From Myxococcales bacterium (GTDB taxonomy: Bacteria > Myxococcota_A > Polyangia > Polyangiales > Polyangiaceae): a DNA stretch of 36,461 nucleotides. Below are positions 2,427 to 14,987 of the stretch, in pieces (the first letter of the stretch is position 1; every line of letters starts with the position of its first letter). The stretch is from contig JAAZAA010000160.1 of NCBI GenBank assembly GCA_012514535.1, forward strand, positions 1 to 36,461. The letters are read 5' to 3'. Under the pieces are notes generated by a model, which was not told where the DNA came from, ran no database searches, and worked only from the letters and a program-made list of their open reading frames with translations. The position numbers were made by a program, and so were the translations under genes.

Positions 2427-3338
2427 TCAGAGTCGCTTCACCTCCGCGTGCCACACTTCTGGGCCGTCGCCGATCTTGCGGAAGTCGAAGGTGCCGGGCG
2501 GCTCGCTCTCGTCGAGGGCGTAGTACATGCAGCTCGGGTCGTGATCGAGGGTGATGTGCAGGGTGGCGCCGCGGGGCAGGACGCGGAAGGCCCCGAGGAT
2601 GGTGCCGAGGCGATCCTTCGGTTCGACGTCGCGGACGTCGAGCTCCATCTCGCCCGTCGCGCGGGCGGATCCGCAGCCGACGACGTTCTTGGATGTGAGC
2701 CATTTGTGCCAGCGGGGCAGCTCTTCGGGGCGGCTCGGGGTGAGGACGATGGGGCCGCCATAGCCGCTGAGGGCGAGGTCGACGAACAGGGGGCCCACGC
2801 CGCGGCCGTCCTGATCGCGCTGTTCGGGGCCGCCGCCGTACAGGCGCACCAGGCCGAGGCGCTCGCGCGCCGTGAGGAGCACCGCCCCGGAGACGCCGAG
2901 ATCCTCGCTGCTGGGACGCAGCTCCCAGGCGAGGCCCACGTCGGGGGGCGCGTTCGTCTCTCGGAGGGCCGTGGTCACGGCGAGGACCTGATCGAGGTCC
3001 GTCGCGAAGCCGAGCAGGAGGGTGCCGCCGGCCTCGGTGAAGGTCCGCGCCAGGTCGGTGAGGGAGACGCCCGCGACGATCCCGAGGGGGAGCGACAGGG
3101 GCAGGGACAGGGCGCCGGATAGACGCGCGAGGTCGGCGAGAGGGATCCCGTCCAGGGTTTCGACGCGCAGAGCGACGACCCGGACCCTGGCCGCGGCGAG
3201 GCGCGCGGCCAGGGTGGGGACGTCATCGCCGGGTCCGATGACGAGCTCGATGCCCTCGAGCCCACGGGCTCGACACGCTTCGTCGAAGGTGTCGAGCTCG
3301 CCGCCCGGGGCTGCCGCGGTGCTCAGGGACAGCTTCAT
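2427..3338 (-). CDS. TIM-barrel (sugar isomerase/epimerase-like) protein fused to a DUF2249 domain
   Basis: The 303-aa product has two parts. Residues 1 to about 225 resemble a xylose-isomerase-like/AP-endonuclease-2 TIM barrel: it opens MKLSLST, has alternating hydrophobic strands (GIELVIG, VRVVALRVETLDG, GGTLLLGF, GPIVLTP) and lacks membrane segments. Residues from about 230 to the end (ELDVRDVEPKDR to WHAEVKRL) are a DUF2249 domain with the family's typical LDVRxxxPxxR opening, a central HDP, and the terminal WxxxVxR strand. The ATG at 3338 forms an ATGA overlap with the stop of the upstream DUF2249 gene, implying translational coupling. It is the last gene of the operon led by the sigma54 activator at 7502. 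The reaction is unknown; the fusion partner suggests DUF2249 may serve a small-molecule or redox enzyme, which is inference only. Confidence 0.8.
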   Translation of the reverse strand: MKLSLSTAAAPGGELDTFDEACRARGLEGIELVIGPGDDVPTLAARLAAARVRVVALRVETLDGIPLADLARLSGALSLPLSLPLGIVAGVSLTDLARTFTEAGGTLLLGFATDLDQVLAVTTALRETNAPPDVGLAWELRPSSEDLGVSGAVLLTARERLGLVRLYGGGPEQRDQDGRGVGPLFVDLALSGYGGPIVLTPSRPEELPRWHKWLTSKNVVGCGSARATGEMELDVRDVEPKDRLGTILGAFRVLPRGATLHITLDHDPSCMYYALDESEPPGTFDFRKIGDGPEVWHAEVKRL

Positions 3339-3573: not shown

Positions 3574-4449
3574 CTATCTCTCTCCTTGTCGATCGGGTCG
3601 ATGGCGAATGAACAGCCGAACGAGATCGGTCGACTGCTCGCGGATTTCGTAGACGAAGCCGCGCTCCTCGAGGTGGGGGAGCAAGAACTGCGGCACGCGG
3701 ACGTTGAGCTGCAGGAGCGTCTTGCCGCGGGGCATCGTCTCGAGGAGCTCGAGGGTGCGGACCATCGGCTCGGGGGGCTCGAGGCCGCGCACGTCGAGGA
3801 CGAGGACGTCTTCCGTGTCGTCGTCGCTCTGCGGAGCCTCGAGCGTGTGAGATGATCGGGGGGTGTCGGCGGTGGTCGGGGCCGGCGCCGCGCTGTCCGC
3901 TGCGGCCGTGCCCTCGGCGCGGAAGAACCAGACGCGCCAGTCGTCGGCGGCGATGCGCTCCGTGAAGTGGTCGAAGCCCTTCTTGCGGAACACGCCGTAG
4001 AGCGGCACCGGCTCGAAGATGGCCCGGATCCGCAGCACCACTCCCGGGGAGAGGGAACGCGCCGCCCCCATGATCCGCGCGAAGGGCTCGATGCCCGCGC
4101 GCAGATCTTCGCGTACGTCGACGTCGAGCAGACGCTCCGCCGGGATCGCCGCCAAGGCGGCCGGGAGCGCGGCGGGCTGGGCAGCGGACTCCTCGTGCTC
4201 TGGCGCGGGGCGGGGCGCAGGCGAGGCGGCGGGGAGATCCGCCAGGGCCCCGTTGAGGCGGGCGACGAGGATCGCCGCTTCCAGCCCCGCCATCTGGGCG
4301 GCCTGCTCCACGGTGACCCGGGGGGCCATGTTCTTGCGCAGACCGGGGCTGCGCAGCGCCTCGAAGTTCGGGGTGGCGGCGACGAGGACGTCGAGGAGAC
4401 GTTCGTCGCGCGCCAGCACCGTCGACAGCTTGTCTTCCGCGCGGATCAC
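3574..4449 (-). CDS. DUF1858 plus tandem DUF2249 protein
   Basis: I start this 291-aa protein at GTG 4449, not the longer in-frame start at 4494, because GTG overlaps the TGA of the upstream MIP18 gene by four bases (GTGA), matching the coupling seen between other genes of this operon. Residues 1 to about 65 are a DUF1858-like helical domain ([20 protein letters not shown], later [12 protein letters not shown]). An Ala/Pro linker follows, then two DUF2249 domains: about 100-175 ([20 protein letters not shown] to WRVWFFR) and about 210-285 ([20 protein letters not shown] to DLVRLFIRH), separated by an acidic Ser/Thr-rich linker. DUF1858 is often linked to DUF2249 in nitrogen-oxide gene clusters. 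The function is unknown. Confidence 0.85.
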
Positions 4450-4742
4450 AGCGCCCCCTTTCGGACCACGCCCGGGTGCCAGCGGGGATCCCACACGAGG
4501 CTCGGGATCACCTCGCGGACCCCTGGGACGTTGCGGACCGCGTTCACGATCCCATCGGTGATGATGCGCTCCATGGGGCAGCCGGGCGTCGTGAGGGTGA
4601 AGGTCACGTCGACGTCACCGTCCTGGATTTCGACGTCGTAGACGAGGCCGAGGGTCACGATGTCCAGGCCGATCTCCGGATCGATGACCTCGCTCAGGGC
4701 AGCGTAGATCGGGCCGGTGGTGGACAGATCGGTGTCGTTCAT
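4446..4742 (-). CDS. MIP18 family (DUF59) metal-sulfur cluster assembly factor
   Basis: This 98-aa protein matches the MIP18/PaaD/SufT family: [20 protein letters not shown] near the N-terminus, [15 protein letters not shown] with the family's conserved Cys in TPGCP, and a C-terminal [14 protein letters not shown]. Members help load Fe-S clusters into target proteins. Here it sits between the heme-copper-oxidase-like membrane protein and the DUF1858/DUF2249 gene, so a role in metallocentre assembly for the NO-reductase island is the likely reading (inference). ATG 4742 overlaps the preceding stop as ATGA; the longer in-frame start at 4790 would extend into the neighbouring gene. Confidence 0.9.
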
Positions 4743-6061
4743 GCGGGCTTCCTCGCGGCGATGCGTGCGATGACGATGACCTGGAGCCACGCGCCCGCCG
4801 CGAACACGATCGCGGCGACGCGCGCGAGCAGCTCCGCGCCGAGGGCCGTGGCGACGGCCACACCGGCGAGACCGGAGACGAGCAGGGCGGCGTCGACGTT
4901 CGCCACCCGCTCCGAGAACAGCTCAGAGACCTTCGGCACCCGCTGCTTGCCGAGCAGCGGCCCGTACCGATGGTTCCACACCAGGAACGGGACGATCTTG
5001 TAGTAGTGACCGGCGACGAAGAGGGTGAAGGAGCCGAGCAGCACGACGAAGTACGTCGTGAGCAGGCGGGGCGCGCTCAGGCCGCGGCTGAGGGCGAAGG
5101 GCGCCAGCAGCAGCGCCACGATGAGCCCGAGGACGCCGGCCGCCGCGAGCCGCATCCCCGGGTCGAGGGCGCGGCGCTGGCGATGCTTGAAGAACGACGC
5201 GGCCTGCACGACGAAGGCGATCACGCCGGCTCCGCCGAGCGCCCCCGCCACCGGCACCGCGATGGCCCCGGCGCTCGAGCCGCCCCAGGCGCCGGGCGGC
5301 ACGGCGAGGATCGTGGCGGCGGCGAAGGTGGAGCCGAGGGCGAGCCAGGCGGCGCGCTCGTCCACGCCGTGGCTGAGCAAGAACATCGGCAGGAGCCGGT
5401 GGGCCACCCCGATGACCACCAGGAAGACGACGCCGAGCAGGGCGATGTGCGCGTGGTGGCCGACCGTGGCGAAGCGATCGGTGATGCCGTCGTGGAGACC
5501 GAGGGCGAGCACGAACCCGTAGGCGGGCGTGACCAGCAGGAAGACTGCGGCTCCCGCGAGCGCCCAGTAGGTGAGGCTGCGCTCACGGACCGCCACCAAG
5601 GTCGCGGCGAGGTTCAGCGCGAAGGTGACGAAGGCGACGGTGAGGAGGAGCGCGCCGAGCAGCAGGAGCGATCGGTTCGTCGCGAGGAGCGCTGCGACGA
5701 AGAGGGCGAGGCCGAGGCTCTGCGCCCCGAAGGAGACGTGGGCCAAGGGGAGGAAGCGCAGCGAGCGCCCCACGGCCACCGGCAGGAACTGGCAGAGCAC
5801 CCCGAAGATCGACAGGACGATCCAGCCCAGGGTGAAGAAGTGGACCAGCGCGATGACCCGCGGCACGAAGAACCACCCGCGCGCGAGGTCCGGGGCGAAG
5901 ACGACCAGCCCGAGGGCGCCGAGCCCGTAGCAGACGAGCGCGGCGGCGAAGTGCTGCCCCGCGAGCCAGGGGGGCACCAGCACCGAGGAGGAGAGGCTGG
6001 GGAGGGCGGGCGCCCCGCGAGGGGCGGGCGCGCTCCCGACGCCGAGGGGGAGGGGAAGCAT
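4739..6061 (-). CDS. 12-TM heme-copper-oxidase-subunit-I-like / NnrS-like membrane protein
   Basis: The 440-aa product is almost entirely hydrophobic, with about 12 predicted membrane helices. It has helix-embedded histidines in a pattern like CcoN/NorB relatives and Nnr[10 protein letters not shown] (H37), LVHFFTLGW (H74), [10 protein letters not shown] (H202, H203, H205), VAHRLLPMF (H221) and [16 protein letters not shown] near residue 365. Two of these segments look like internal repeats (LVHFFTLGW...FGVLCQFLP and HHAHIALLG...GVAHRLLP). It lacks the full catalytic set of NorB, so it may bind heme or copper without being a reductase. The gene begins 40 bp after the activator gene with a GAGGTGG ribosome site just upstream of ATG 6061, so it is probably cotranscribed. 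It could be an NO-tolerance or NOR-maturation protein; the exact role is unknown. Confidence 0.75.
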
Positions 6062-6101
6062 TCCACCTCACGCCCTTGCACGTAGGATGCCAGGTCGAAG
6101 G

Positions 6102-7502
6102 TCAGGCTCGTCGCCGTGCCTCGTCGAGCTTCCGGTAGAGGGTGCGCTCGGAGATCCCGAGGGCCCGCGCGAGGCTCGCGCGATCCGCGGCGCGCGCCTC
6201 GGCCCAGCGCAGATAGTCCGCCTCGAGCTGCGCGAGCGGGAGGAGCTCCGCGACGGAGAAGGCGCCGTCGTCGGTGCCGCCGCGGCGAGCGCCGTTCGGG
6301 GAAGCGCCCACGGTGAAGGCGCCCTCTGCGAGGGCCCCCTCTTTGAGCGTGTCGGGGCGTCCGGGGATTCGGGAGTCGCTCGTGAGTTCGACGGGGAGGT
6401 GCTCGACGCCGAGCTCGTCGCCGTCCGCGAGCAGGGCCATGCGGTCCACCACGTTGCGGAGCTCGCGCACGTTGCCGGGCCAGTGGTGACGGGTGAGGCG
6501 CGCGAGGGCGTCGCTGGTGAGGCGTTTGCCGGGGTGCTTCTTGGTGAGGAAGCTCTCACAGAGCGCCCCGATGTCGCTGCTCCGTTCGCGGAGGGGCGGG
6601 AGGACCACCGGGAAGGCGTTGATGCGGTAGTAGAGATCCTGGCGGAAGGTGCCCGCCTCCACCATCGCCGCGAGGTCCCGGTGTGTCGCGCAGACGAGGC
6701 GAAAATCCGCGCGGTGAGACTCCGTGCCGCCCACCCTGCGGTACGTCCCCGACTCCAGCAGCCGGAGCAGCTTCACCTGGACGGGCAGAGGCACGTCGCC
6801 GATCTCGTCGAGGAACAACGTCCCGCCCGCGGTCGCGCCCACCAGGCCGCGCTTGGCCTTGTTCGCGCCGGTGAACGCGCCCTGTTCGTAGCCGAAGAGC
6901 TCCGACTCGAAGAGGTTCTCGGGGAGCCCGCTGCACTCCACGGGCATGAACGGCCGGTGGCGGCGTGGGCTCATGCGATGCAGCGCCCGCGCCGCGAGCT
7001 CCTTTCCGGTGCCCGACTCCCCGAGGAGCAGCACCGGCACCTCGCTCGGCGCGGCGCGCTGCAGGAGGCCGAGGGCGCGGAGGAAGCTCGTCGCTCGCCC
7101 CACGAGCTCGCCCTCGTACTCGCGGGCCTCGTCGACCTCCAGGATCCGCTCGAGGAAGTACGCGACGCGGCCCCGATCATCGAGGATCGGCTCGACCTCG
7201 ACGTCGACGTACCGGGGCCCCGTGGCGCCGTGGTGGATGTGGAAGACCCGCTGCCGGCGCCCCGATTCCATCGTCGCCCGCAGCGGGCAGGGCTCGCCGT
7301 TCTGATCGCAGGGCGAGTCGAACTCCCGCGAGGCCGCGTAGCAGGACCTCCCGACGTCCCCGTACTTCTCGCGGTAGGCCGCGTTCGCCGCGAGGATCTC
7401 GTGGTTCATGGCGATGAGGATCGCGGGCTCGGCGACGCGGTCGAGCATCGCCCGCAGGTTGTCGCCGATGGGCGGGGGCTTCTTTCGGACCTGGAGGAGC
7501 AT
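6102..7502 (-). CDS. Sigma54-dependent activator with Cys-containing PAS domain (NorR-like role)
   Basis: This 466-aa protein is an enhancer-binding activator. An N-terminal PAS-like sensor (about 10-130) carries three cysteines, C54, C65 and C72, in a CY...PC...PCPL arrangement. The central AAA+ domain has Walker A GESGTGKE, the sigma54-contacting GAFTGA loop, Walker [12 protein letters not shown] and LRERSSDI. The C-terminal Fis-type helix-turn-helix is [21 protein letters not shown] low-complexity linker (about 375-410) joins AAA+ and HTH. Classical NorR senses NO with a GAF domain and non-heme iron; this one has a PAS instead, so the signal is uncertain, although its place between the two halves of the nor island makes it their likely regulator. 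It heads the operon down to 2427 and is divergent from a sigma54 promoter at 7611-7627. Confidence 0.92.
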
Positions 7503-7513
7503 CGCCTCGGATA

Positions 7514-7559
7514 TGCCACATCTGACAGGATTGGCATACCGGATGTGTCAGAATTGGCA
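7514..7559. promoter_or_regulatory. Candidate upstream activating sequence (repeated half-sites)
   Basis: Two inverted 14-bp arms are visible, tgccacatctgaca (7514-7527) and tgtcagaattggca (7546-7559), identical in their outer five and inner seven positions when one is reversed. A third copy, tgacaggattggca (7523-7536), is a direct repeat of the right arm at 23-bp spacing, about two helical turns. The array lies about 80-125 bp upstream of the expected start site of the sigma54 promoter at 7611-7627, the usual place for an enhancer bound by a sigma54 activator, and abuts the activator gene's start. Binding by that activator is inference. Confidence 0.65.
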
Positions 7560-7610: not shown

Positions 7611-7627
7611 TTGGCACGCGCCTGGCT
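7611..7627 (+). promoter_or_regulatory. Sigma54 (-24/-12) promoter
   Basis: The sequence ttggcacgcgcctggct matches the sigma54 consensus YTGGCACGN4TTGCW with one mismatch in the -12 box (tggct for ttgct). The invariant GG (7613-7614) and GC (7625-7626) are separated by exactly ten bases. Transcription would begin near 7638, about 60 bp before the A-type/rhodanese gene at 7699. The neighbouring sigma54 activator gene and repeated upstream half-sites support function. Confidence 0.8.
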
Positions 7628-7698: not shown

Positions 7699-8298
7699 AT
7701 GAGGGCGCCGCGGGTGACCGTCAGCGAGGGAGCGCTGCGGGCGTTTCGCGAAGCGGCGCACCAGATGAGCGAGGGGGACGTGCTGCGGTTGTCGATCGAC
7801 GCGAAGTTCCACAACGACCTCTTCTTCGCGCCCGTCGAGCCCAAGGACGTCGTGGTCGTCGTCGACGGGCTCCGGATCGCGATGAACCCGCGCACGGCCC
7901 AGCGCGCGGACGGTCTGCACATCGACTACGTCGAGGGGCCGAGCGCCACCGGGTTCAAGCTCGACAACCCGAACGCCTCCAGTCGCATCCAAGGCGTGCG
8001 CCCGGTGGAGGTGGTCCGCATGCTCGAGGCCGGGGAGAGCTTCGAGTTCATCGACGCGCGCCCGGCCGCGGAGCGCGCGAAGGTGAGCATCGTCATGGCG
8101 CGCGCCCTCGACGAGGTCTACGCGGCGGAGCTCGAAGCCGCTCCGCGGGAGAGGAAGCTCGTCCTGCTGGGGCATCACAGCACCGATGGGCGCACCGCCG
8201 CTCGGCCCTTCGAGCAGAAGGGCTTCAAGGAGGTCTGGTACGTGGTCGGGGGCATCGACGCCTGGTCGACGATGGACCCGAGCGTGCCGCGGTACTGA
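7699..8298 (+). CDS. A-type (HesB/IscA-like) domain fused to rhodanese-like domain, both without cysteines
   Basis: The 199-aa protein starts at ATG 7699 behind a ggggaggg ribosome site. Residues about 5-93 form an A-type Fe-S carrier fold of the degenerate kind seen at the N-terminus of NfuA: VTVSEGALRAFREAA, then LHIDYVEGPSATGFKLDNPN, where IscA would have its CxC. Residues about 100-195 are rhodanese-like: FEFIDARPAAER, VLLGHHSTDGRTAA, FKEVWYVVGGIDAW. In active relatives the loop reads CHHGxRS; here Cys is replaced by Gly158 (GHHSTDGR). There is no cysteine anywhere in the protein, so neither cluster binding through the usual thiols nor sulfur transfer is expected. It is the first gene behind the sigma54 promoter, so a scaffold or binding role linked to nitrosative stress is possible (inference). 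Confidence 0.88.
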   Translation: MRAPRVTVSEGALRAFREAAHQMSEGDVLRLSIDAKFHNDLFFAPVEPKDVVVVVDGLRIAMNPRTAQRADGLHIDYVEGPSATGFKLDNPNASSRIQGVRPVEVVRMLEAGESFEFIDARPAAERAKVSIVMARALDEVYAAELEAAPRERKLVLLGHHSTDGRTAARPFEQKGFKEVWYVVGGIDAWSTMDPSVPRY

Positions 8299-8350: not shown

Positions 8351-9163
8351 ATGGCCGTTCGACAAGAATCTCACGCCCTCCCCGGCGCTCACCTCGACTG
8401 GGAGAAGATGCCAGGTCACTGGCTCCTGGCGCGGTTGGGCAAACGTGTCCTCCGCCCCGGCGGGCTCGAGCTCACCCGAGCGATGCTCGACGGGCTCGAC
8501 ATCTCTCCTCGAGACACCGTCGTCGAGCTCGCGCCGGGGCTCGGGACCACGGCGCGCCTCGCCCTGGCGCGCGCCCCGGCCTCCTACGTCGGGGTGGAGC
8601 GGGACGAGGCGGCGGTCGCGTCGACGAGGCGGTATCTGCGCCCCGGCCGCGACGATTGTCGGCGGGGCGTGGCCGCGAACACGGAGCTCCCCGACGCCTT
8701 CGCGTCCGTCCTCTACGGCGAGGCGATGTTGACCATGCAGACGACTCCGCAGAAGGAGGCGATCGTGCGGGAGGCGCGGCGCGTCCTGCGCTCCGGGGGA
8801 CGCTATGGGATCCACGAGCTCGCCATCGCCCCCGACGACCTGGCCGTGGCGGAGAAGGAGGCCATCCAGCGGGAGCTCTCCGACGCCATCCACGTGGGCG
8901 CGCGTCCGCTCACCGTCGGCGAGTGGCGTGAGCTCCTCGAGGGGGCGGGGTTCCGGATCCTGCAGACGACGACCGCGCCGATGCACCTGCTCCACCCGAC
9001 GCGGATCCTGGCGGACGAGGGGCTCGCGGGGGCGCTGCGCTTCGCCGCGAACGTCGCGCGGACGCCAGCGGCTTGGAGGCGCCTGGGAGAGATGCGCTCG
9101 ATGTTTCGGAAGCACGAGGCGCGGCTCTGCGCGGTGATGTTCGTCGCCGAGGCGGTGAGCTGA
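8351..9163 (+). CDS. SAM-dependent class I methyltransferase in the nor island
   Basis: The 270-aa protein has a clear Rossmann methyltransferase core: motif I VVELAPGLGTTARLALAR (about 57-74), an acidic ribose-binding residue in YVGVERDEAAV, ANTELPDAFASVLYGEAMLTMQ as motifs II/III, and REARRVLRSGGRYGIHEL downstream. ATG 8351 follows an aaagggag ribosome site by about 7 nt and lies 52 bp after the A-type/rhodanese gene, so both probably share the sigma54 promoter. The substrate is unknown. Methyltransferases of this kind appear next to denitrification genes in other genomes, but I cannot assign a reaction. It is followed by a strong hairpin. Confidence 0.85.
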   Translation: MAVRQESHALPGAHLDWEKMPGHWLLARLGKRVLRPGGLELTRAMLDGLDISPRDTVVELAPGLGTTARLALARAPASYVGVERDEAAVASTRRYLRPGRDDCRRGVAANTELPDAFASVLYGEAMLTMQTTPQKEAIVREARRVLRSGGRYGIHELAIAPDDLAVAEKEAIQRELSDAIHVGARPLTVGEWRELLEGAGFRILQTTTAPMHLLHPTRILADEGLAGALRFAANVARTPAAWRRLGEMRSMFRKHEARLCAVMFVAEAVS

Positions 9164-9855: not shown

Positions 9856-10677
9856 ATGACGAAGCGCCATACACGCCTGTTTTTCCTCGGAGGGACCATC
9901 CTCTTCGCCCTCATCTTCGCGGGCATGACCATCGACACGCACCGTCACTTCGACCGGCTCACCAACGCGGACAAGCTGACGGACGAGGTCATCGCGGGGA
10001 ACCACGTCTGGCACCGGAACAACTGCATCAACTGCCATACCTTGTTCGGTGAAGGCGCCTACTATGCGCCGGATCTCACCAAGATCGCCCAGCAGCGCGG
10101 CGCCGCCTATCTCGCGGCCTTCCTCCGAGATCCGTCACAATTCTATTCAGAGAAGGTGCATCGGCGCTTGATGCCGAACCCCAACCTGAGCGAGACGGAG
10201 ATCGCCAACGTCATCACCTTCCTCGAGTGGGTGTCGAACATCGACAACCAAGGGTGGCCTCCGCGCCCCATCGTCGTGACGAGCGGGCAGTTCACCCAAG
10301 TGAGCAACACCCCAGAACCCGCCCAGGCGGTCTCGGACAACCCGGTCGACCTGGGCAACGCGCTCTTCTTCTCCGCGGAGCTGGCCTGTCAGGCGTGCCA
10401 CTCGACGCGAGCGGACGTCACCCTGGCGGGCCCCTCCTTGGCAGGCATCAAGGCGCGCGCCGAGGAGATCCTGAAGGATCCTTCCTATACCGGTTCGGCC
10501 AAGGACGTGGAGGGCTTCATCCGTGAGTCCATCGTGGAGCCCAGCGTGTACCTCAACCCCGGCCCGAACTTCTCGACCGGCCCTGGGGGTGTCTCGCTGA
10601 TGCCGGCCGACTACAAGACGCGCCTCGAGGCCGAGCAGATCGACCACCTCGTCGCCTATCTCATGACCCTGCGTTGA
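9856..10677 (+). CDS. norC: Nitric oxide reductase cytochrome c subunit with a second cytochrome c domain
   Basis: The 273-aa protein has an N-terminal membrane anchor (about 8-25, LFFLGGTILFALIFAGM) and then a NorC domain with heme motif CINCH at 57-61, the family's NCINCHTLFGEGAYYAPDL signature and a likely Met ligand in RRLMPN (M105). A second CxxCH, CQACH at 178-182, begins another cytochrome c domain with GPSLAGI and a Met in SLMPADY. Canonical NorC is about 150 aa with one heme, so this is an extended diheme form. NorC passes electrons from periplasmic donors to NorB. Its TGA lies 6 bp before the norB ATG. Confidence 0.95.
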   Translation: MTKRHTRLFFLGGTILFALIFAGMTIDTHRHFDRLTNADKLTDEVIAGNHVWHRNNCINCHTLFGEGAYYAPDLTKIAQQRGAAYLAAFLRDPSQFYSEKVHRRLMPNPNLSETEIANVITFLEWVSNIDNQGWPPRPIVVTSGQFTQVSNTPEPAQAVSDNPVDLGNALFFSAELACQACHSTRADVTLAGPSLAGIKARAEEILKDPSYTGSAKDVEGFIRESIVEPSVYLNPGPNFSTGPGGVSLMPADYKTRLEAEQIDHLVAYLMTLR

Positions 10678-10683
10678 GTTCCG

Positions 10684-12075
10684 ATGCGTTACCGTACCCA
10701 ATCCATCGCCTACTGGTACTTCGCCTTCGCAGTGTGCCTGTTCGGGCTGCAGATGGTCTTCGGGCTGCTCTCCGCGGTGAAGTACCTCGGCCCGGATCCG
10801 CTCATCGACATCATCCCGTTCGATCGCTCGAAGGCGGTTCACACGAACCTCCTCATCGTCTGGGTCCTGACCGGCTTCATGGGCGCGAGCTATTACGTGG
10901 TGCCCGAGGAGTCGCGCGCCGAGATCTACAGCCCGAAGCTCGCTTACTTCCAGCTCGGGCTCTGGGCCACTGGCGGCGTGACCGCCGTGGTGGGGTATCT
11001 CTTCGGCTGGACCACGGGGCACAAGCTGCTCGAGCAGCCGTATCCCGTGAAGCTCACGATCGTCATCGTGATGTTGATGTTCCTCTACAACATCCTGATG
11101 ACCATCCGGAAGGCGGGGCGCTGGACCACCACCGAGGGGGTGTTGATCGCCGGGCTCGGCCTGGCCGCCTTGCTCTATCTGCCGGCGCTGATCTCCTTCG
11201 ACAACTACACGATCAGCATCTTCTATCGCTGGTGGACGATCCACCTGTGGGTCGAGGGCGTCTGGGAGATGGTCCAGGCGGGCCTGCTCGCGTATCTGCT
11301 GATCCGCCTGTCCGGCGCCGATCGGGAGGTGATGGAGAAATGGCTCTACGTCATCGTCGGCCTGGTCTTCATCGCCGGCATCATCGGCACGGCGCACCAC
11401 TACTACTGGGTGGGGGTGCCCGCATACTGGCTCCCCATCGGTGGGCTGTTCAGCGCCCTCGAGCCCCTCGCCCTGTTCGTGATGGTGGCCTACGCCTACG
11501 TGGCGATGCGTCGCTCGGGGCTCAAGCACCCCAACAGCCTCGCCTTGCACTGGACGATCGGGAGCGCCATCTTCACCGCCTTCGGCGCGGGCCTGCTCGG
11601 GCTCGCCCACACCTGGCCCGCGGTGAACAAGTGGACCCACGGCACCCTGATCACGCCGATGCACGGGCACTCCGCCTTCTTCGGCGCCTACGTGATGATC
11701 AACCTCGCCATCATCACCTTCGCCCTGCCGACGCTCACCGACCGTCGTGAGGGCGAGGACCAGAAGCTCGGGTACTGGGCGTTCTGGCTCATGTCGGCGG
11801 GGATGTTCGGCATGACTCTGGCCTTCGCCGCGGCGGGCGTGGGGCAGGTGTACCTCGAGCGGATCATGGGCCTCGGCTACCTCGAGACCCAGCTCAAGCT
11901 GCAGGTCCACATGATCATGCTCACCGCGACGGGGGTGCTGTTCAGCATCGGCGTCGGGCTCTTCGTCTACGACTTCTTCCGGGCGCGCCCCCGCTTCATC
12001 ACGCAAGGGGACGGGGCGCCGCGGGGAGACGAGGAGGCCGCTCCCGACGACGGCGCGGCGGCGGAGCCTGCATGA
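10684..12075 (+). CDS. norB: Nitric oxide reductase catalytic subunit NorB (cNOR type)
   Basis: This 463-aa heme-copper-oxidase family protein reduces two NO to N2O in the cytoplasmic membrane. It has about 12 helices and all expected metal ligands: H53 and H329 for heme b, H327 for heme b3 (MHGHSAFFGAY), H187, H238 and H239 for the non-heme iron FeB (TIHLWVEGVWEM; GTAHHYYWVG), and the conserved glutamates E191 and E195. Its length matches NorB of the two-subunit NorCB enzyme, with no N-terminal quinol-oxidase extension of the qNOR type. The C-terminal tail is acidic and Ala-rich. It follows norC directly. Confidence 0.97.
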   Translation: MRYRTQSIAYWYFAFAVCLFGLQMVFGLLSAVKYLGPDPLIDIIPFDRSKAVHTNLLIVWVLTGFMGASYYVVPEESRAEIYSPKLAYFQLGLWATGGVTAVVGYLFGWTTGHKLLEQPYPVKLTIVIVMLMFLYNILMTIRKAGRWTTTEGVLIAGLGLAALLYLPALISFDNYTISIFYRWWTIHLWVEGVWEMVQAGLLAYLLIRLSGADREVMEKWLYVIVGLVFIAGIIGTAHHYYWVGVPAYWLPIGGLFSALEPLALFVMVAYAYVAMRRSGLKHPNSLALHWTIGSAIFTAFGAGLLGLAHTWPAVNKWTHGTLITPMHGHSAFFGAYVMINLAIITFALPTLTDRREGEDQKLGYWAFWLMSAGMFGMTLAFAAAGVGQVYLERIMGLGYLETQLKLQVHMIMLTATGVLFSIGVGLFVYDFFRARPRFITQGDGAPRGDEEAAPDDGAAAEPA

Positions 12076-12145
12076 GCTGGCGCGGGCTCGTCCCCGGGCG
12101 CGGCGCTGTACGTGCCCCGCGGGACGGGCCACCCTCTGACTCGGC

Positions 12146-12973
12146 ATGACCACATCAGGGAGCTCGAGCTCGACCGAGGGCGTGCGCCGGCTGCGCGAGG
12201 AGCCGTACTACCTCGCGACCGGCGACGAGGTGAGGATCTTCCAGCAGTGCCACGAGCGGCGCCTGGCGGTGATGCTCAAGGGGCCGACGGGGTGCGGCAA
12301 GACGCGCTTCGTCGAGCACATGGCGTGGCGGCTGGGGCGTCCCTTGATCACCGTGTCCTGCCACGACGATCTGTCCGCGAGCGACCTCACGGGGCGCTAC
12401 CTGGTCCGGGGCGGGGAGACGATCTGGCAGGACGGGCCGCTCACCCAGGCGGTGCGCATGGGCGCCTTGTGTTACCTCGACGAGGTGGTGGAGGCGCGGC
12501 AGGACACGGTCGTCGTCATCCACCCGCTGACGGACCATCGTCGCCTGCTGCCCATCGAGAAGACCGGGGAGCTCATCGAGGCGGCCGAGGGGTTTCAGCT
12601 CGTCGTCTCCTACAACCCCGGCTACCAGCACGTGCTCAAGGACCTCAAACCGAGCACGCGCCAGCGCTTCGTGGCCCTGGAGTTCGACTTCCCGCCGCCG
12701 GAGCGGGAGATCGAGATCGTCCAGCACGAGAGCTCCGTGGAGCGCGCCGTCGCCCACGAGCTGGTGGCCCTGGGAGGGCGGCTGCGTCACCTCCGCGATC
12801 GCGGCCTGGCGGAGGTGCCGAGCACGCGCCTGCTCGTGGCCGCGGCGCGGCTCATCGCCGGCGGCATCGACGCGAAGACGGCCTGCCGCGTGGGCCTGGT
12901 GGCGCCGCTGTCCGACGACGCGGAGCTGGTCGAGGCGATGCACGATCTGATCGATCTGACGATCGGCCGCTGA
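12146..12973 (+). CDS. norQ: NorQ MoxR-type AAA+ ATPase
   Basis: The 275-aa ATPase belongs to the MoxR/CbbQ/NorQ group, which works with a von Willebrand A partner (NorD) to insert FeB into NorB. Visible motifs are Walker A GPTGCGKT (46-53), Walker B ALCYLDEVVEAR (about 107-118) and sensor 1 VVSYNPGYQ. The CbbQ/NorQ C-terminal segment contains VPSTRLLVAAARLI. It begins 70 bp after norB and ends 19 bp before norD. Confidence 0.95.
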   Translation: MTTSGSSSSTEGVRRLREEPYYLATGDEVRIFQQCHERRLAVMLKGPTGCGKTRFVEHMAWRLGRPLITVSCHDDLSASDLTGRYLVRGGETIWQDGPLTQAVRMGALCYLDEVVEARQDTVVVIHPLTDHRRLLPIEKTGELIEAAEGFQLVVSYNPGYQHVLKDLKPSTRQRFVALEFDFPPPEREIEIVQHESSVERAVAHELVALGGRLRHLRDRGLAEVPSTRLLVAAARLIAGGIDAKTACRVGLVAPLSDDAELVEAMHDLIDLTIGR

Positions 12974-12992
12974 GGGCGGCTGGAGCCGGGCC

Positions 12993-14987
12993 ATGGCAGA
13001 ACCCGAAGAGCTCCTCCTCGACGGAGCCCACCACGCGACGCAGTTCGTCCGGCGCCTCTGGCGGCGCGGCGCGGAGGGGGCGGACCCGGCGGTGTTGCAG
13101 CTGGTCGACGTGCGCGCGCGGCTCGAGCTCTTCGTGCGGGCCGCCTTCGGGCTCTCGATGACGATCCGCGCCGCGGAGCCGCCCGCGGTGCCCTCCTGGT
13201 TCACGCGCCTCGGGCGGCGCATCCCCGCGCACCTCGTCGAGCGCGCGTGCGCGCCGGGCACCGACGGAGTCGTGCTGCGCCTCCCACCGGAGCTGCCCGT
13301 GGACGCGCGCGGGGGCGGTGGGCTCGCCACCTATCGTCTCTACGCGGCGGAGCAGGCGGCGCGGGCTCTGCGGGAGACGCCCCGCTTCCTCCCCGCGGAT
13401 CCTCTGGAGCGCGCGCTGTACCTCGTCCGAGAGGGGGCGGCCGTCGAGCGGCTGCTCGTGGACGAACTGCCGGGTCTCGGCGACGCCGTGCGAGAGGCCC
13501 GACGCGCGGCCCTGGCGAAGCGACCCGCCCGAGAGCGGCTGTCGGCGCAGGAGGCCGCCGTCGAGGCGGAGCTGCTGGCCGTGCTCGGCGACGATCCGAC
13601 GAGAGGCCCGCGGACGGGGCCGGAGGAGTCTCTGGCGTGGGCGGCGGAGCAGGCGACGCGGATTCGGGGCGTGCGGGGGCCGTTCCGCGGCGTCCCGCGC
13701 GTCATCCCGTGGGGCGAGGTGACCGCGCCGAGCGGGGGCGGGGAGCGGCTCGTCCGGGGCGCCGCGGACGAGCCGGAGGGCGACGCTCCGAAGCCCCGGG
13801 TCGCCAAGATGATCCGGCGACCCCGGGTGCGCAGCGCCGCGGACGACGAGGACGACCAGAACATGGGGATGTGGATGGTCCAGCTCGACGATCCGCAGGA
13901 GCACGTGGAGGACCCCATGGGCTTGCAGCGCCCCGCAGACCGCGACGGCGACGCGGATCCCGAGGGCCTCGCCGACTCCCTCTCGGAGCTGGAGGAGGCG
14001 CGCTTGGTGAAGACACCGGAGCGTCCCCGGGAGGTGCTCACCAGCGACGAACCCGTGCCCGTCGGTGCGGCGCAGGTGCGGCGCGAGGCGACCACTCCGG
14101 GCCTCGTGTACCCCGAGTGGGATTACCGCCGGCGCGCCTACCGCGAGCGCGGCGCCGTCGTGCGGGAGCGGGTGCCCGCCCTGGGGGATCCGCGCTGGGC
14201 GGAGCAGGTGCTCGCGCGCCGGGCGGCCCTTTTGCACGAGGTGCGCCGACGCTTCGAGCGCCTGCGGCCGCGCCGGGTCCGCCTCGGGCGGCAGCGCGAT
14301 GGGGTCGAGGTGGATCTGGCGGCGTACGTGGCGGCCCACGCGGACCGACGCGCCGGGCTCCCCGCCGACGATCGACTCTACGAGGCGGTCCGGTGCACCC
14401 GCCGGGACGTCGCCATCGCGCTGTTGGTCGACGTGAGCGCGTCGACGGACAGCTGGATCACGGGGGACCTCCGCGTGGTGGACGTGGAGAAGGAGGCGCT
14501 GCTCGTCGTCTGCGACGCCCTCGACGCGCTCGGCGATCCCTACACGATCCTGGCCTTCTCGGGGGAGGGGCCCGAGGCGGTGTCCGTGCGCCGGTTGAAG
14601 TCCTTCGAGGAGCAGATCGGGCCCCTCGTGCGGCGCCGGATCGCGGGCCTCGAGCCCGAGCGCTACACCCGCATGGGCGCGGCGCTGCGCCACGCCACGG
14701 CGCTCCTCGTCCGCAAGCCCGCCCGGCACCGCCTGCTGCTCGTCCTCTCCGACGGCAAGCCGAACGACGTGGATCAATACGAGGGGCGCTACGGCGTCGA
14801 GGACACGCGCCAGGCGGTCTGCGAAGCACGTCTGCAGGGGCTGCACCCCTTCTGCGTGACCGTCGACCGCCTGGCGCCCGCGTACATGCCGCGGATCTTC
14901 GGGAGCGGCGGGTACGCCGCCTTGCATCACCCCGAGCACCTGCCGTCGGTGCTGGTGGATGTGCTGCGGCGCCTCGTGAAGGCCTGA
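12993..14987 (+). CDS. norD: NorD von Willebrand factor A domain protein
   Basis: The 664-aa product is the NorQ partner needed to activate NO reductase. The N-terminal two thirds are helical and charged, with an acidic central segment (about 270-360). The C-terminal VWA domain carries the metal-ion-dependent adhesion site: DVSAST (from residue 480), a Thr in RYTRMGAAL, and LSDGKPND (from about 585). Length and order (norCBQD) match the family. A 7-bp inverted repeat overlapping the stop codon may end the transcript. Confidence 0.95.
   Translation: MAEPEELLLDGAHHATQFVRRLWRRGAEGADPAVLQLVDVRARLELFVRAAFGLSMTIRAAEPPAVPSWFTRLGRRIPAHLVERACAPGTDGVVLRLPPELPVDARGGGGLATYRLYAAEQAARALRETPRFLPADPLERALYLVREGAAVERLLVDELPGLGDAVREARRAALAKRPARERLSAQEAAVEAELLAVLGDDPTRGPRTGPEESLAWAAEQATRIRGVRGPFRGVPRVIPWGEVTAPSGGGERLVRGAADEPEGDAPKPRVAKMIRRPRVRSAADDEDDQNMGMWMVQLDDPQEHVEDPMGLQRPADRDGDADPEGLADSLSELEEARLVKTPERPREVLTSDEPVPVGAAQVRREATTPGLVYPEWDYRRRAYRERGAVVRERVPALGDPRWAEQVLARRAALLHEVRRRFERLRPRRVRLGRQRDGVEVDLAAYVAAHADRRAGLPADDRLYEAVRCTRRDVAIALLVDVSASTDSWITGDLRVVDVEKEALLVVCDALDALGDPYTILAFSGEGPEAVSVRRLKSFEEQIGPLVRRRIAGLEPERYTRMGAALRHATALLVRKPARHRLLLVLSDGKPNDVDQYEGRYGVEDTRQAVCEARLQGLHPFCVTVDRLAPAYMPRIFGSGGYAALHHPEHLPSVLVDVLRRLVKA

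Follow-up and report, generated by a model that had tools for sequence, protein, structure and literature searches.

A conserved A-type/rhodanese fusion protein that has lost its rhodanese cysteine loop, encoded beside a putative sigma-54-controlled cassette linked to nitrogen-oxide respiration

Proteins composed of a CGFS glutaredoxin, a middle domain and a rhodanese domain were described in 2009 as 'frataxin-rhodanese-GRX' proteins (PMC2679010), and we infer that they are the same family as the Grx-A-type-rhodanese proteins discussed below. The assignment of the middle domain to frataxin in that description was considered and rejected, as no frataxin chain is found among the matches listed, and both the profile and the fold match IscA-type proteins. 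The protein reported here resembles the A-type-rhodanese half of this family, in which the A-type domain is also Cys-free, but differs in having neither the glutaredoxin domain nor the rhodanese Cys loop. It shares the A-type fold of the IscA/SufA/ErpA carriers but lacks their three Cys ligands and scores under the sequence cut-offs, and it shares the fold of active rhodaneses and passes PF00581, but lacks the catalytic Cys and its loop (CHHGxRS in relatives). DsrR, a Cys-free regulator of dsr expression in the dsr sulfur-oxidation setting, has the same A-type fold (2k4z, Z 13.1) but consists of a single domain.

NfuA is targeted to apo-proteins by its degenerate A-type domain, in which a ligand Cys is missing (PMC8593673). 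The A-type fold of the protein reported here is likewise devoid of ligating Cys, but the Nfu domain of NfuA binds [4Fe-4S], whereas the partner domain in the present protein is a seemingly inactive rhodanese; a C-terminal Nfu domain is absent, and the rhodanese found there has no Cys. Rhodanese domains can be binding platforms, for example in TBC1D23 (PMC7274447); TBC1D23 and USP8 (PMC12057046) use the rhodanese fold for binding and not for catalysis, but are eukaryotic trafficking proteins, and TBC1D23 keeps its Cys. After damage by NO, RIC proteins (RIC/YtfE/ScdA) return aconitase and fumarase to activity (PMC9268430), and they supply the iron from which clusters are assembled (PMC8117158). 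These di-iron proteins are unrelated to the present protein and have no sequence kinship to it, but two sister cassettes have them in the same divergent place next to a sigma-54 activator. In Thermus, DrpB affects nitrate-respiration gene expression and nitrate reductase activity (PMC6282519), and DUF2249 genes are induced by denitrification in a haloarchaeon (PMC11218638). Our search of the open-licence literature found no published Cys-less A-type-rhodanese fusion.

The window, i.e. the whole stretch of DNA analyzed here, comprises 36,461 nucleotides from a Myxococcales bacterium, and its features are listed in Table 1 together with those of related loci. Translation of the focal gene gives a Cys-free protein of 199 aa in which residues 158-165 read GHHSTDGR; the ATG at 7699 fits the starts of the orthologs. 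Pfam rhodanese PF00581 scores 32.8 bits on the protein (above the cut-off of 22.2), while Fe-S_biosyn PF01521 (22.3 bits, cut-off 26.3) and NCBIfam TIGR00049 (E=3.4e-8, 33.6 bits, cut-off 58.8) score under their cut-offs. An AlphaFold2 model was computed from a 69-row alignment (A2; mean pLDDT 96.1, pTM 0.74). Residues 4-95 of the model match E. coli IscA 1r94 (Z 13.2, rmsd 2.1, 92 residues aligned), and residues 94-199 match the GlpE rhodanese 1gmx (Z 15.9, rmsd 3.1, 105 residues aligned). Foldseek with this model again returned the IscA and rhodanese families, and the family profile finds IscA and rhodanese chains by sequence alone. The match of the predicted fold to IscA and GlpE shows that both domains are real. 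In the A-type domain the three Cys are absent and GFKLDNPN is kept. An earlier note on this DNA had described a Cys-free A-type/rhodanese fusion with this very loop, a description that the translation and the fold bear out. At a Cys base rate of 0.69% (from 18 chosen window genes, focal gene excluded), 199 residues would contain no Cys with P=0.25, so that Cys-freeness by itself, expected by chance in ∼25% of cases, is weak evidence.

Table 1. Coordinates of the features in the window and, where a locus is named, in related loci
Feature	Position	Strand	Basis or remark
Focal gene, degenerate A-type/rhodanese protein, 199 aa	7699..8298	+	translation, family profiles, fold
A-type (IscA-like) domain, residues 4-95	7708..7983	+	fold match; IscA 1x0g alignment
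Rhodanese domain, residues 96-199	7984..8295	+	Pfam; fold match GlpE 1gmx Z 15.9
Former rhodanese active-site loop, residues 158-165, GHHSTDGR (relatives CHHGxRS)	8170..8193	+	translation and alignment
Sigma-54-type (-24/-12) promoter element TGGCACGCGCCTGGCT, towards focal gene	7612..7627	+	pattern scan
Second palindrome TGTCAGAATTGGCA	7546..7559	.	pattern scan
Palindrome TGCCACATCTGACA, candidate binding site of sigma-54 activator	7514..7527	.	pattern scan
PAS and sigma-54 activator, divergent neighbor	6102..7502	-	Sigma54_activat 215 bits; PAS_4 32.2 bits
Multi-pass COX1-like membrane protein	4739..6061	-	COX1 19.3 bits, under cut-off; conserved in cassette
MIP18/SufT-type protein (FeS_assembly_P)	4446..4742	-	78.7 bits
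DUF1858 and DUF2249 protein, domains as Thermus DrpB	3574..4449	-	Pfam; PMC6282519
DUF2249 protein, last gene of divergent cassette	2427..3338	-	Pfam; orthologous neighborhoods
norC-norB-norQ-norD-like genes downstream of focal gene	9856..14987	+	window only, not conserved beside short form
RIC gene, L124	3984-4709		TIGR03652
RIC gene, L127	12529-13236		TIGR03652
acnA-linked degenerate A-type/rhodanese locus, L223	606-3901
acnA-linked degenerate A-type/rhodanese locus, L222	6773-10056

The genome of the window (G000) also encodes a paralog (C309) that is 41% identical to the focal protein across the A-type-rhodanese half (E 4.8e-39). It contains an N-terminal CGFS glutaredoxin, an A-type domain without ligand Cys (its single Cys lies outside the ligand positions) and a rhodanese domain with an intact CHHGHRS loop. 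The N-terminal CGFS glutaredoxin is absent from the focal protein, and the open frame extends just 23 codons upstream of its ATG. The order set consists of 183 genomes, largely draft assemblies in which the absence of a gene can mean an assembly gap. Of these, 116 match the profile of the six glutaredoxin-less short forms at E<=1e-35; the short forms themselves score 294-367 bits, and the next protein, which bears a glutaredoxin, scores 263 bits. In a wider collection of genome contigs, a first scan (with P0001) found no named relatives, and a second (with A1) found 80 loci. The order genomes and the best places in the wider collection were combined into a census of 176 loci, of which L096 gave no match, leaving 175 usable rows (six short forms and 169 others). 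L048 and L025 were dropped as duplicates of L037, and since some genomes are still present twice (e.g. L057/L149), the counts refer to loci and not to genomes.

The rhodanese-position Cys is present in 166 of the 169 non-short loci; two have Ala (the acnA-linked copies described below), and one (L092) ends before this domain, its sequence stopping after the A-type domain. In the six short forms the residue is Gly in three and Ala in three. At the three IscA-ligand columns, which align loosely, none of the 175 family rows has a Cys, and the CxC tail is missing. The absence of the A-type cluster-binding Cys, to which the earlier note had drawn attention, is thus confirmed but extends to the whole parent family. 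This loss is therefore ancestral, and the one conserved Cys lost here is the rhodanese nucleophile. In alignment A2, all 63 relatives have C158, G161 and S164, and 98% of them have R163; the short forms have replaced C158, R163 and S164 in all six cases and G161 in five. Judged from this alignment, the nucleophile and most of the surrounding rhodanese loop are gone in the short forms. His159 is invariant in all 69 rows and His160 nearly so, Arg occupies position 165 in five of the six short forms, and Trp180 and Tyr181 are new short-form residues, each present in five of six. Grx-A-type-rhodanese proteins with Cys-free A-type domains and the rhodanese Cys also occur in Lysobacter, Xanthomonas and relatives (loci L062-L089), and G145 contains a divergent long-type paralog (L131 5236-6129) that has an N-terminal part without CGFS and the rhodanese loop CKNGTRS.

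Short forms occur in six of the 183 order genomes, and all six lack both the glutaredoxin and the rhodanese Cys. The five other than the focal protein are intact and 44-61% identical to it. Four of the six are entirely Cys-free, and L034 and L035 each have one Cys elsewhere, so Cys-freeness is no fixed property of the short forms. In a quick tree of 71 of the 175 census rows, the six short forms, with L037 on a long branch, constitute one clade (support 97), which joins two glutaredoxin-bearing proteins of family f8 (G007, G034; support 99). This grouping led us to reject a recent copy of the genome's own long paralog as the origin of the focal gene. The short forms are not nearest to the long forms of their own families, which points to an old duplication or a transfer with the cassette. 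Third codon positions are the most diverged in 14 of 15 short-form pairs (with a tie with first positions in L036-L037, and a small contrast in the pairs with L037), the pattern of a gene that is maintained for the protein it encodes. The earlier note would have read homologs that retain the Cys in the same context as a sign of drift in one strain; none was found among the six orthologs, all of which have lost the rhodanese Cys. As the loss of the Cys loop is conserved in six proteins of one clade at the same place beside the cassette, it is not drift. By sequence and conservation, the focal protein is predicted to be a pseudo-rhodanese that branched off from the Grx-(Cys-free A-type)-rhodanese family and has no glutaredoxin domain.

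All six short forms are encoded divergently beside one cassette, which consists of genes for the activator, the COX1-like protein, the MIP18 protein, the DUF1858/DUF2249 protein and the DUF2249 protein. In L036, the sigma-54 element is separated from the short form by an inserted ArsA-type ATPase gene (10321-12339). The cassette, as recognized by its DUF1858/DUF2249 protein, is present in 12 of the 183 genomes, six with and six without the short form (one of the latter being cut off by its contig), so the cassette does not require the short form. Of the five cassettes that lack the short form and are not truncated, just two clearly contain MIP18, which is at most a slight hint.

The pattern TGGCAYGNNNNTKGCW, which was loosened to fit the loci and chosen after seeing them, has its sole match in the 36-kb window at the element listed in Table 1, with 0.01 matches expected from shuffled window sequence. 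A -24/-12 element directed towards the short form is present in all six loci, ∼98-110 bases from the activator start, and was not found on that side in two cassettes without the short form scanned alongside (L123, L125). A weaker -24/-12-like stretch (∼6077-6092, minus strand) was read by eye before the COX1-like gene. Palindromes of the form TGYCA-N4-TGNCA cluster beside the activator, with six matches in the window versus 0.27 expected, overlapping and two-strand matches being counted separately. The form TGNCA-N4-TGNCA is matched at four of the other five loci with a short form, as well as at L123 and L125, whereas L036, L124 and L127 gave no match. The conserved -24/-12 element and the palindromes suggest that the focal gene very probably belongs to the regulon of the activator.

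At a threshold of E<=1e-60, norB is found in 33 of the 183 order genomes: in two of the six carriers of the short form (G000, G064) and in 31 of the 177 others (p=0.30). The short form was thus not found to track with nor, a check that the earlier note had proposed. Its suggestion that the gene is induced with NO metabolism holds to the extent that the gene is probably co-induced with the cassette via the sigma-54 promoter, but its presence is unlinked to norB. Among the carriers, narG is found in two of six and nirK in three of six. At least one of narG, nirK and norB is present in five of the six carriers versus 48 of 177 others (p=0.008), and in ten of the 12 cassette genomes versus 43 of 171 others (p=8.5e-5), p-values that are optimistic because related genomes are not independent. 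One carrier (G127, 84% complete) gave no match to narG, nirK or norB with the thresholds applied here. The cassette of G057 is flanked on one side by narHJI-like genes with an Rrf2 regulator and on the other by a nirK gene located ∼1.6 kb downstream of the short form (narI and Rrf2 were identified by family search, the other nar genes by eye). To judge from gene content, the setting of the short form is nitrogen-oxide respiration in general and not nor in particular.

In two of the cassettes without the short form (L124 and L127), a RIC iron-center repair gene is divergent to the sigma-54 activator (TIGR03652 scores of 230.9 and 183.9 bits against a cut-off of 204.7, which the second does not reach). 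The activators beside RIC are shorter, 42-45% identical to that of the window and without palindromes, so RIC shares the position but not the regulatory unit or promoter. Another glutaredoxin-less copy is present in two genomes of one f5 genus (G019, G077), directly behind the aconitase gene acnA, which it overlaps by 4 bp in L223 (G077). The acnA-linked copies have the loop AQHRERAW, with Ala at the rhodanese position, and two Cys each elsewhere in the aligned part. A long form was not found in G019 or G077 at the thresholds used, and a regulator like the cassette's activator is absent beside the acnA-linked copy. Near long forms, the search for acnA gave just a 27%-identity stretch in L050. 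The quick tree requires two separate Cys losses, in the cassette clade and in the acnA copies; a tree with all eight Cys-loop-less copies as one clade scored higher and was not rejected (p-AU 0.56).

We put at roughly 0.5 the probability that the focal protein is a pseudo-rhodanese capable of neither A-type cluster binding nor sulfur transfer, and that it serves as an adaptor within a cassette that is controlled by sigma-54 and protects Fe-S proteins from nitrogen oxides. The binding or scaffold role suggested in the earlier note remains the best reading of the sequences. Under nitrogen-oxide respiration or stress, the neighboring sigma-54 activator would turn on the focal gene together with the COX1-like/MIP18/DUF2249 operon. 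The focal protein would then act as a passive adaptor, its degenerate A-type domain docking on Fe-S clients or carriers in the manner of the corresponding domain of NfuA, and its degenerate rhodanese domain binding another partner, for which the MIP18 protein is a plausible candidate. The adaptor and this partner may help to maintain or restore Fe-S proteins under NO damage, and in the two sister cassettes the position of the short form is taken by the di-iron repair protein RIC.

The main rival to the adaptor is a regulator of the cassette. On this view the inactive protein would bind either the PAS/sigma-54 activator or its alternative partner, the DUF1858/DUF2249 protein, and adjust how active that protein is, forming a feedback loop. 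This is possible but doubtful. The fold match to DsrR is in its favor, as is the divergent position beside the activator in all six loci (with one gene between in L036), but such adjacency is equally expected from co-regulation. DrpB of Thermus, which has the same domains as the cassette protein and affects nitrate-respiration gene expression (PMC6282519), fits regulation as well; however, six cassettes have no short form, and no such regulator lies beside the acnA-linked relative. Alternatively, the remodeled pocket could be a ligand site, for an oxyanion such as nitrite or for a metal on His159-His160, making the protein a small-molecule sensor or carrier. The conserved His pair, Arg165, Trp180 and Tyr181 would all suit a ligand site, but the two His are already present in active relatives, where their retention may be structural, and the anion-binding Arg163 and Ser164 are gone, which leaves this reading unlikely.

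The earlier note had instead attributed the missing Cys to selection against NO-reactive thiols. Replacement of the rhodanese Cys in six of six short forms, four of them entirely Cys-free, agrees with such thiol removal in an NO-rich cell, and so does the DUF1858/DUF2249 neighbor, which has no Cys in six of six (window and matched part of five orthologs). However, two orthologs gained a Cys, Cys persists in the activator (6-8 residues) and in MIP18 (1-2 residues) of the short-form cassettes, and the A-type Cys loss predates the setting and is shared with relatives outside it. The short form is not tied to norB, and a Cys-free chain is readily expected by chance. Moreover, the non-thiol residues R163, S164 and G161 were also lost, which thiol avoidance does not predict; it is therefore unsupported, and we reject it as the main cause and regard it as quite improbable. 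Least credible of all is a decaying remnant of a duplicated Grx-A-type-rhodanese gene: one domain and the active site have been lost and L037 lies on a long branch, but the five intact orthologs, the excess of third-position divergence and the conserved promoter and place all speak for a maintained gene.

A tentative extension, which we consider less likely than not, is that A-type/rhodanese proteins lacking the rhodanese Cys form a family that carries no cluster and serves Fe-S repair as client adaptors. Six of them are attached to nitrogen-oxide cassettes (in the slot also used by RIC), and two would be translationally coupled to the aconitase AcnA, a link known from two genomes of a single genus. 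A pseudo-enzyme that combines two thiol-dependent folds and is kept across families would indicate that these folds are useful apart from their chemistry. The gene context (sigma-54 promoter, MIP18, RIC in sister cassettes and acnA overlap) names concrete partners, so that the way in which degenerate A-type domains pick their Fe-S clients becomes testable on a small protein. With the short form, a further component joins the DUF2249/DrpB-type accessory genes of nitrate/NO respiration, which are poorly understood.

Two minor observations concern the genes flanking the focal gene. Directly 3' of it, at the window locus only, lies a gene for a class I methyltransferase (8351-9163). The PAS region of the activator contains a C-x10-C-x6-C cluster, noted by eye and also seen in L033 and L036, which may be a metal or Fe-S sensing site.
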